From positions 1 to 64,000 of the forward strand of contig JAPLDQ010000011.1 in NCBI GenBank assembly GCA_026391675.1: a stretch of 64,000 bases of DNA, read 5' to 3'. Below are positions 47,765 through 50,956 of this stretch, piece by piece (position 1 is the stretch's first letter; the number at the start of each line of letters is the position of its first letter). A model generated the notes under the pieces. The model saw only the letters and a program-made list of their open reading frames with translations, did no database searches and was not told the origin of the DNA. The DNA is from Bacteroidota bacterium. GTDB lineage: Bacteria > Bacteroidota > Bacteroidia > Bacteroidales > JACABE01. Position numbers and translations under genes: made by a program.

Positions 47765-50700
47765 CTAAATCACAATATTCACAATTTTTCTGGGTACAAT
47801 AATCACCTTTTTGGGAGTTTTACCTTCCAGCCATTTTTGTGCATCAGGATTGGCAAGTACAGCTTTTTCTATTTCAGTTACAGGCAAATCAACGGCAAAT
47901 TCCATTTGAAAACGTGTTTTTCCATTAAATGAAACCGGGTAATTGAAAGTATTTTCTACCAGATAAGTTTCGTTTAATTCTGGGAAAGCTGCATAAGTAA
48001 TACTCGTATTATTACCTAAACAATGCCATAATTCTTCTGCAAGATGAGGTGCATAGGGTGAAATCAAAACCGCAAGGGGTTGTAGTATTTCGCGTTTGTG
48101 ACATTTCAGTTCAGTAAGTTCATTGGTGCATATCATAAATGTACTTACCGCAGTATTAAACGAAAAACGTTCGATATCTTCCTGTATCTTTTTAATGGTG
48201 CGGTGCAGCACTTTTAATTCATGTGGACTAGCCTGTTCATCTATAACACACAATATATTTTCTTCGTTATGGTACAATTTCCAGAACTTACGGATAAAAC
48301 GGAATACACCTTCTATGCCTTTGGTATCCCATGGCTTTGATTGTTCCAATGGGCCAAGAAACATTTCATACATACGCAATGTATCAGCGCCATAGCGAAC
48401 TACCAAATCATCAGGATTCTGCACATTGTGCATTGATTTTGACATTTTTTCCACTTCCCAGCCACAATGGTATTTACCGTTTTCCAGTATAAATTCTGCA
48501 TTGGAAAAGTCGGACATCCAGTTTTTGAATTTTTCGGTATCCAGTATATCCGCATCTACTATATTTACATCCACATGAATGGCTTGCGTATCGTAATTAT
48601 CCTTTAAACCATAGGATACGAACTGATTAGTTCCTTTAATCCTGTATACAAAATTAGAACGACCCTGTATCATTCCCTGATTGATTAATTTCTGGAAAGG
48701 TTCATCTTTAACACAAAGTCCTAAATCGTAAAGGAATTTATTCCAGAAACGCGCATAAATCAAATGGCCTGTGGCATGTTCAGCACCACCGATATATAAA
48801 TCTACATTTTGCCAGTATTGATTGGCTTCTTTTGAGAAAATTTCTTTTTCATTGCCTGCATCCATATAGCGGAGATAATAGGCGCTGGAACCGGCAAAAC
48901 CCGGCATTGTATTGCATTCCAATGGATAACCCTCATCAGTAAACCATTTTTCGGCACGTGCCAGCGGTGGTTCGCCACTTTCGGTAGGTAAATATTTGTC
49001 TACAGCAGGTAATTCCAGTGGAAGTTTGGACTCATCCAGCATATAAGGCATACCATCCTTGTAATATACAGGAAATGGTTCTCCCCAATAACGCTGACGG
49101 CTAAAAATTGCATCACGCAGGCGATAATTCACCATTCGTTTTCCAATGCCTTCTTTTTCAACAAAATCAATAACAGCTTTTATACCTTCTTTTACATTCA
49201 TGCCGGTAATAAAACCGGAATTGATACAAATGCCTTCTTTTGAATCCTTTGATTCTTTCCATGATGATGTATCTTCAGGATTTTCGCCTGTTGGGACAAT
49301 TACCTGAGGAATAGGCAATCCGAAATGACGCGCAAATGCAAAATCGCGGCTATCGTGAGCCGGAACAGCCATTATGGCACCGGTTCCATAACCGGCCAAT
49401 ACATATTCCGATATCCAGATGGGGATTTCCTGCAAGGTTAATGGATTAATGGCATACGCACCGGTAAATACACCGCTGATTTTGTTTACCTCAGACTGAC
49501 GTTCCCGTTCAGTTCGGTTTTTAGTCCATTGCAGATAATCAGCAACTTCTTTTTTCTTATCATCGGTAACTATAGTTTCAATTATTTCATGTTCAGGACA
49601 TAAAACCATAAAACTTACACCGAAAATAGTATCAGGTCTTGTCGTAAAGATTACCACCTCACCTAAATCCTCTCCAGAGGAGAGGACTTTAGATTTGAGC
49701 TTGGATTTAATTTTTTCGACAACTTCATCAATATTATTAATTATTTCTTCATTTGAAAACCGGATAATTTCAAAACCTATTTTATTGAGTTCTGAAATGC
49801 GTTTTACATCTTCATCCTTTTGATTTTCATTTACTTTGCCTTCAACTTCAATGATCAGTTTCTTTGATAAACATACAAAATCAGCAATATAATTACTTAC
49901 AACCTGTTGCCTTCTGATTTTAAAACCTGTTTGACTTGATCTTAAACTATGCCAAAGAATATTTTCTGTTTCAGTTGGTTCTTCCCTCATTCTTTTGGCA
50001 TTGTCTTTCAGTGCGGCCCAATCCGAAGGATTTGTAGCATAAAAACGTGATTTGGCTCCCTCTTCTTTGGAAAGGGTTGGAGATAGGTGAAATTTAACTT
50101 CAGCCCCAACAGATTTACCTATCCAGTTTTTTTGAATTTCTTTTATTGAATCGCTCCAATCAATGGTATCCAGACCTTGCAGTAATCTTTCAGCATAGGC
50201 AGATATTCGCAACGACCACTGACGCATGGATTTGCGTTCAACAGCATATCCTCCTCTTACAGATAAGCCGCCAACTACTTCATCATTGGCCAGAACAGTT
50301 CCTAACTGTGGGCACCAGTTTACCATAGTATCTGAAAGATAAGCCAGACGATAGTTTAATAAGATTTCCTGTTGCTGTTTTTCTGATTTTGATTTCCATG
50401 CTGCAGCAGTAAATAGTTCTGTTTCATTACAACTTGCTTCAATATTGTTATTACCTTCTTTTTCAAATAACTGAATTAATGAAGCAATAGTTTCTGCTTT
50501 TTGTGTTTTATTATTGTACCAGTGATTGAATAATTGAATAAAAGTCCATTGAGTCCATTTATAATAAGAAGGTTCACAGGTACGGACTTCTCTGTCCCAA
50601 TCGAAAGAGAAACCGATTTTATCAAGTTGTTCGCGGTAACGGGCTATATTTTTTTCAGTAGTAATGGCAGGATGTTGTCCGGTTTGTATGGCATATTGCT

Positions 50701-50956
50701 CAGCTGGCAATCCATAAGCATCGTAGCCCATGGGATGCAATACATTAAAGCCTTTATGCCGTTTATAGCGTGCATAAATATCAGAAGCTATATAGCCAAG
50801 GGGATGTCCAACATGCAAACCTGCACCTGAAGGGTAGGGGAACATATCCAATACATAAAATTTTGGTTTTTCTGATTTATTCTCAGCCTTAAAAGTTTTA
50901 TTCTTGCTCCAGTAATCCTGCCACTTTTTTTCTATCTCATTAAAATTGTAGTCCAT
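47765..50956 (-). CDS. leuS: Leucyl-tRNA synthetase with an inserted DUF559 domain
   Basis: Charges tRNA-Leu and edits mischarged products; class I enzyme, cytoplasmic. The 1063 residues exceed the usual 850-930 for this phylum. [17 protein letters not shown] holds the HIGH-type motif (HVGH at 48-51), KMSKS is at about 837-841, and the editing domain has TTRPDTIFG (438-446). Between [12 protein letters not shown] (278-289) and [10 protein letters not shown] (434-443), where relatives have only a short loop, about 145 residues are inserted that read as a complete DUF559 domain. The frame is open throughout, so the fused protein should be made. It is read alone with its own terminator. Confidence 0.96.
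49654..50092 (-). mobile_element. In-frame DUF559 cassette inside the leuS editing domain
   Basis: The insert encodes leuS residues about 290-433. Its core, [12 protein letters not shown] (328-339), FKIRRQQ (345-351), ADF with D359, and LIIEVEG with E370 and E372, is the DUF559 pattern, a Vsr-like endonuclease fold with acidic residues in place. The ends are DNA repeats translated as [13 protein letters not shown] and [11 protein letters not shown]. In DNA, the leftmost end (49656-49690) contains the stem CCTCTCC-AGA-GGAGAGG and the other end (50056-50092) is its diverged inverted partner (CCCTCTTC ... GGAAAGGG ... AGGTG). So the unit has terminal inverted repeats and a nuclease-like domain, and its length keeps the frame. 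Confidence 0.85.

Follow-up and report, generated by a model that had tools for sequence, protein, structure and literature searches.

The leucyl-tRNA synthetase (LeuRS) gene of a Bacteroidales genome carries, in frame and in a poorly conserved loop, an element in which two palindromic inverted repeats enclose a DUF559 nuclease domain, and DUF559 inserts are found in about twenty different host genes across Bacteroidota. We put the probability at about 0.6 that, as the sequences suggest, these inserts form a family of homing-type nuclease elements that are translated with their hosts, are not spliced, and occupy tolerant loops, the LeuRS copy being one probably ageing member. With a little less assurance, we favor seeing in them a distinct autonomous selfish class in Bacteroidota that would have given up splicing and, at least in some copies, start signals. 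Such a homing nuclease, bounded by palindromes and intermediate between inteins and Rickettsia palindromic elements, would spread through translation as an additional domain that housekeeping enzymes tolerate and on decay would become a source of new protein domains.

The inserted element in leuS

The window analyzed here is a stretch of 64,000 nucleotides, positions 1–64,000 of contig JAPLDQ010000011.1 (assembly GCA_026391675.1; Bacteroidota bacterium; Bacteroidales; JACABE01), from a genome labelled G000. Its leuS product reaches 912 bits with the bacterial LeuRS model, for which the cut-off is 548. Because this is the only LeuRS match at E ≤ 1e-100 in a genome of 4.04 Mb that is 98% complete, the cell presumably depends on it. 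The initial annotation had read leuS as open for 1063 codons, with about 145 extra codons at 49654–50092 and inverted repeats of the CCTCTCC/GGAGAGG type at both ends, within the LeuRS frame. All of this was borne out, and the repeats themselves now set the exact borders of the 145 codons (Table 1). The element begins on a codon boundary. Each end combines an outer tail of 13 nt with a hairpin of 19 nt and is free of stop codons in the LeuRS frame, where it reads as 11 residues. Aligned as inverted repeats, the 32-nt ends agree at 22 of 32 positions; among 20000 random position pairs with the same spacing within the window, not one did as well.

Table 1. Coordinates of leuS and of its inserted element within the window
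Feature	Position	Strand	Remarks
leuS, leucyl-tRNA synthetase, insert included	47765..50956	minus	1063 aa; single genome match at E ≤ 1e-100
Element, tail to tail	49655..50089	minus	435 bp = 145 codons (leuS codons 290–434); inverted repeats, and short loops in relatives
5′ terminal repeat (leuS sense)	50058..50089	minus	32 nt; tail 50077–50089 and imperfect hairpin 50058–50076
3′ terminal repeat (leuS sense)	49655..49686	minus	32 nt; perfect hairpin 49668–49686 and tail 49655–49667
DUF559 (PF04480) nuclease domain, predicted EDxHD/Vsr-like fold	49697..50011	minus	E331, D359, and E370 present; D372 replaced by E, H376 by N

Pfam places DUF559 at LeuRS residues 316–420 (E = 7.5e-32; 109.9 bits against a curated cut-off of 20.6) and the LeuRS editing domain directly after it, at residues 432–599. 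The insertion site is the loop just ahead of the FTTRxDT motif of the editing domain. In insert-free relatives this loop is short (e.g., GAEMTF-KVKDSDVEM-VIFTTRADT in L019), and its conservation falls in the 2nd percentile along LeuRS (26 insert-free rows). Where filled and empty sites were compared, about 5–10 loop residues are missing in the filled ones, either lost on entry or trimmed later. At these sites no target duplication was seen, the borders being blurred by the lost loop residues. In one relative (L018, genome G050), the loop is filled by another, low-complexity repeat insert (SQQSAVSRDELKTQNSELK...), so the LeuRS site tolerates unrelated DNA.

We modeled the insert alone with AlphaFold2 from a 24-row alignment of the window copy, L004, and IMG/VR loci. 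The model (mean pLDDT 79.7) has a confidently predicted core, 81 of its 146 residues scoring at least 90, and disordered ends (residues 1–15 and 138–146, below 50); a model of whole LeuRS, built from two rows only, had a mean pLDDT of 28.9. In a Foldseek search, the best match to the insert model was 3hrl, a putative endonuclease-like protein (1.3e-6), followed by 3r3p_B (3.9e-5); 3r3p is the catalytic domain of the homing endonuclease I-Bth0305I. Mitoribosomal proteins, PvuRTs1I, and Vsr matched more weakly. A sequence profile from 24 in-gene copies found the same two entries in the PDB (3hrl, 1.4e-29; 3r3p, 1.1e-6). On these models, the insert is predicted to have the catalytic-domain fold of EDxHD homing endonucleases. 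Of two published papers, one assigns a DUF559 gene to the EDxHD homing endonuclease family (PMC9403480) and the other places DUF559 proteins with Vsr-like PD-(D/E)XK nucleases (PMC12907096).

Host genes, nuclease motif, and terminal repeats

At the order level, DUF559 matches occur in at least 161 of 393 genomes, and in 28 rows with frames of 311–1459 aa the domain lies inside the longer frame, mostly bounded by repeat-coded peptides. For the whole class, we ran an in-gene profile against 395 genomes and counted the best 79 rows (E ≤ 3.9e-37) by hand: 77 lay in frames of at least 359 aa (61 of the 395 genomes) and the other two in frames of 146 and 235 aa, and the ten rows after these all had frames of 120–213 aa. 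Long-frame and short-frame copies are sharply split in this class-wide listing. A phylum-wide draw of 395 genomes added long-frame copies in genomes of other classes. We read 99 in-gene copies; about ten of the 77 class-wide long-frame rows and the new phylum-wide rows lie outside this set.

Hosts identified by NCBIfam are LeuRS, IleRS, acetyl-CoA synthetase (Acs), and RecG. Pfam adds MetH (two sites), pseudouridine synthase, RecJ, methylmalonyl-CoA mutase, a SpoIIE-type phosphatase, TsaB- and TsaD-type proteins, Sua5/YrdC, a UvrD-type helicase, an M23 peptidase, a CoA transferase, a sugar epimerase, a DegT aminotransferase, and HsdM, as well as a PurL-type amidotransferase with the domain at the frame end. 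Further members were assigned to these hosts by blastp. By motifs, in part read by eye, other hosts are probably ValRS, HsdR, Cap5F, and TsaB, and LeuRS probably has a second site. In-gene copies number 31 at LeuRS site 1 (30 of them among the 99), 11 at LeuRS site 2, 8 in MetH, 7 in Acs, and 6 in IleRS. One host is without a name (L091), and in two records the domain lies at the frame end (L271) or near the frame start (L231). The 124-domain tree and the hairpin and motif counts leave out L281 and L213, L220, and L230, which are second records of the copies in G023, G000, and G208; L009 (G006) is in the insert trees and outside the 99-copy hairpin and motif counts.

Residues conserved across the DUF559 inserts are an E, a D, and the motif E-x-D-G-x-x-H, which is intact in 95 of the 99 in-gene copies (87 by script, with 8 of the 12 script exceptions added by eye). 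The window copy is among the four that depart from it, with E372 in place of D and N376 in place of H. The acidic residues D359, E370, and E372, named in the initial annotation as signs of a complete domain, are all present, but relatives have a near-invariant D at position 372 and a near-invariant H at 376. The sister copy in G001 has more motif changes than the window copy, and the copies in G002 and G003 are intact. With two near-invariant active-site residues changed, the window copy is probably decaying and may itself be passive now. In 16 of the 99 copies there is no ATG, GTG, or TTG between 25 codons upstream of the domain and the first conserved E, which suggests that host translation is the sole source of the nuclease in at least 16 copies.

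The terminal repeats recur with the domain. C-rich hairpins flank the domain on either side in 28 of the 33 in-gene copies at order level (0 of 1064 control positions within these loci) and in 14 of the 24 free DUF559 copies (0 of 23 control positions). Among the 99 in-gene copies, 80 have hairpins on both sides and 19 are without a detectable hairpin on one or both; with the end-to-end match in leuS, the element thus has the terminal inverted repeats of insertion sequences and MITEs. Across 80 elements, the two tails of one element match at 9.75 of 16 positions, against 8.13 when tails are swapped among elements (highest of 200 swaps, 8.49), so the two ends of an element co-vary.

We also looked for the ends elsewhere in G000, in 459 kb made up of the window and 20 further stretches. 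The palindrome CTCTCC-N2..5-GGAGAG occurs there in one place, the leuS element, and palindromes of the CTCTCC and CTCCCC types solely at the two DUF559 genes of this genome. A looser scan gave five C-rich hairpins, four of them at the two DUF559 genes, compared with three in one Markov-shuffled copy. Dispersed REP repeats as a source of the ends were rejected for G000 on this ground. In the whole genome, no second DNA copy of the element was found (short matches only, E 0.0016 and above). Besides the leuS insert, a single DUF559 gene was found, and its ends are of this type too. A third, weak protein match (L003, E = 0.16), within a long frame resembling that of a transporter, appears fortuitous. 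Around the free gene (contig C40), three CCTCCCC/GGGGAGG palindromes with outward tails stand at L120:19152, 19281, and 19776.

Ends also occur in other arrangements. They are tandemly duplicated in LeuRS of L098 (G003), L089 (G265), and L090 (G173), the peptide ALSFGEDLGEV being read twice in G003, and they may multiply on their own. Within 200 kb of the G208 genome, three similar paired palindromes have no nuclease gene in the flanking sequence examined (L194 near 4815, L200 near 5201, and L202 near 14689). A lone end-like palindrome with a tail stands at L206:19137 (G310), likewise with no nuclease gene in the flanking sequence examined.

Gain, loss, and movement

Empty sites, for which the initial annotation had proposed aligning related LeuRS, were found even within genera. 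Same-genus LeuRS differ in this respect between G057 and G256, between G006 and G221, and between G122 and both G300 and G363; IleRS of G240 and G380 and epimerase of G358 and G114 form further with/without pairs. Remnants are seen as well: LeuRS of G004 keeps both ends with the nuclease gone, and one end remains at the insertion sites in ValRS of G023 and IleRS of G033. Empty sites, remnants, and the two younger inserts described below point to gain, loss, and some movement of the element. The 99 in-gene copies, their many hosts, the empty sites, and the remnants likewise support the proposal that a nuclease-like gene in a palindromic cassette colonized an essential gene without breaking it. 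An old domain fusion, with all close relatives filled and no repeat ends elsewhere, is not the pattern found: four same-genus genomes are filled, relatives in the order differ within a genus, and the second DUF559 gene shares the ends. LeuRS loops of L011 (G034) and L134 (G147) hold an in-frame DUF559-like domain without palindromic ends and without ExDGxxH, a decayed or domesticated copy.

On the LeuRS host tree (50 rows), insert presence needs 7 changes, compared with 14.6 when shuffled; here G031, G055, and G147 were left unlabelled, the decayed G034 copy was scored as an insert, and G256 counted as empty despite a possible half-hairpin remnant in its loop. In the tree of 124 domains, 92 in-gene copies group at SH-aLRT 95 with no free copy inside and eight in-gene copies fall outside, so the in-gene habit probably arose more than once, many forks of this tree being unresolved. 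A smaller, careful tree groups 27 in-gene copies at 99/98. Inserts cluster by host gene (42 changes, compared with 84.9 shuffled and a minimum of 29, free copies counted as one group), and there is a host switch, the UvrD- and PurL-type copies of G576 grouping together at SH-aLRT 91. One ancestral LeuRS insertion followed by losses only is compatible with the host tree and is disfavored by the insert tree, which speaks against a single LeuRS clade (p = 0.015), and by lateral movement between G080 and G344.

In two pairs the insert is, from synonymous differences, clearly younger than the host gene. Between the LeuRS genes of G080 and G344, 24 of 111 synonymous codons differ in the insert and 229 of 503 in the host (p = 2.3e-6), and 0 of 53 host windows are as low; with other borders the counts are 23 of 90 and 223 of 487 (p = 3.1e-4). 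DNA identity in this pair is 88% in the insert and 78% and 75% in the flanks. Between the RecJ genes of G548 and G408, the differences are 15 of 95 in the insert and 200 of 471 in the host (p = 4.2e-7). Including these two, 5 of 16 pairs in one set and 5 of 28 in the other reach p < 0.05, always with the insert lower; pairs share genomes, and one pair is common to both sets. For the weaker differences, the lower GC3 of the insert is a possible explanation. In the remaining pairs insert and host do not differ, so that elements are usually inherited together with their host gene, and homing in most pairs was dropped as a reading. One SpoIIE-type pair has inserts that are 74% identical in hosts that are 30% identical. 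In ten LeuRS pairs, dN/dS is 0.11–0.34 for the insert and 0.03–0.09 for the host, one host value being undefined and several dS near saturation.

Proposed homing and its alternatives

The mechanism that we propose starts from an element in which two terminal inverted repeats, composed of an outer tail and a hairpin and coding for flexible linkers in the host frame, enclose an in-frame, EDxHD/Vsr-like DUF559 nuclease. It would enter a variable loop, replacing about 5–10 loop residues, and be translated with the host protein, the nuclease folding independently as a side domain. Tolerance by the host protein would come from the disorder of the linkers and from this independent folding. Produced together with the host, the nuclease would cut empty alleles, and repair would copy the element in. 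Occasionally the element may reach a new gene, perhaps by way of its palindromic ends. After a site has been occupied, decay of the nuclease would be unopposed, as seemingly in the window.

The initial annotation had offered a homing-like element and a passive passenger as alternatives. For the family, the homing-like reading fits better, given the near-universal motif and the two inserts younger than their hosts, but the window copy looks decayed and is perhaps a passenger now. A general form of passive cargo, in which REP- or MITE-like palindromic ends are moved in trans by an unrelated transposase with the nuclease uninvolved, seems to us unlikely. It would account for the nuclease-less remnants with one or two ends at the same sites, and the tail-plus-hairpin ends do look like REP units, can duplicate (G003), and stand as nuclease-less pairs in G208; against this, four of the five C-rich hairpins in the 459 kb of G000 belong to the two DUF559 genes, free DUF559 genes bear the same ends, and 95 of 99 in-gene copies have kept the nuclease motif. 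Pfam found no transposase family in the window insert. We give still less weight to a host function, whereby the host enzyme has acquired a regulatory or protective domain, or a defense nuclease is expressed from housekeeping genes. The same element sits in hosts of unrelated function, its presence is scattered, with empty sites within one genus, and leuS has stayed open in G000 and G001 while the motif decayed, all of which weigh more with us than the purifying selection on the insert (dN/dS 0.11–0.34), its persistence within genera, and the motif-less DUF559-like domain kept in LeuRS of G034 and G147.

Removal of the insert after transcription or translation, by an unrecognized intron, intein-like splicing, or ribosome bypass, is improbable. 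Placement in conserved enzymes recalls intein hosts, and the complementary ends could fold the insert out; yet Rfam gave no group I or group II intron in 49300–50500 at E ≤ 1 (the best E, 0.19, belongs to a non-intron family), and an intein model was found neither among all NCBIfam matches to LeuRS and IleRS, nor among the top 25 listed for Acs and RecG, nor in the Pfam scans. In the copies read, the frame and both ends are also kept open, which removal would make unneeded, a weaker point since open frames were a selection criterion. The window genome and many relatives are draft assemblies, but an assembly or binning artefact is scarcely credible with the same site and frame in four same-genus genomes and many families and with in-gene copies in the single-contig genomes G524 and G698.

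Our preferred reading, a translated homing-type element, sets the family apart from known systems that it partly resembles. EDxHD homing endonucleases (I-Bth0305I, 3r3p) share its nuclease fold and sequence profile, but this element lies outside any intron or intein, is translated as an internal host domain, and has palindromic ends. Inteins with a homing endonuclease are likewise in frame in conserved genes, include a nuclease, and are scattered in distribution, whereas the present element matches no splicing model and in LeuRS sits in a poorly conserved loop. Rickettsia palindromic elements too place palindromic DNA in frame in probably working genes (PMC3733652). They are short and are not known to encode an enzyme; the LeuRS element differs in being 435 bp long with a nuclease domain and in occurring in Bacteroidota. 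ShiLan (PMC11855218) is an in-frame, non-intein, non-intron insertion in a phage methylase that carries a nuclease gene and has a homing-like distribution, but its HNH nuclease is read out of frame, whereas the DUF559 nuclease shares the frame of its host, is bounded by palindromes, and has many host genes. WHO elements of yeasts (PMC7282813) home into an essential gene without protein splicing, as the DUF559 element would; however, they replace the 3′ end of FBA1, and the DUF559 element is an internal domain. REP/RAYT systems and MITEs (PMC3733652) also have tail-plus-hairpin ends flanking a nuclease-type gene, but here the gene product is a DUF559 nuclease with no Y1 transposase, and the ends are not dispersed in the 459 kb of G000. 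The element would work like a homing element but lacks what defines inteins, introns, and REP/RAYT systems.

Our search of the literature on in-frame nuclease insertions and on palindromic elements in coding genes returned nothing of this kind, which is weak evidence because most subscription papers and preprints lie outside its coverage. We rate the arrangement as categorically new, the nuclease family itself being already known. The usual view is that selfish DNA in an essential gene becomes harmless through splicing, as inteins or introns do. If our reading is true, a lineage that manages without splicing, by means of tolerant loops and ends that code for linkers, would have solved this problem in a new way and would explain many odd insertions in Bacteroidota enzymes. 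LeuRS, IleRS, MetH, RecG, and other hosts would also offer a natural catalogue of loops able to take up a domain of about 100 residues, and the entry of foreign domains into proteins would become testable. For annotation, DUF559 in LeuRS, Acs, or RecG need not mean a purposeful domain fusion.

In L281 (G400, contig C20), a DUF559 match lies at the start of a SpvB/TcdB-mid type gene. In L283, a contig from the IMG/VR viral collection that is probably bacterial DNA, the element lies in a gene that is ValRS-like by motif.
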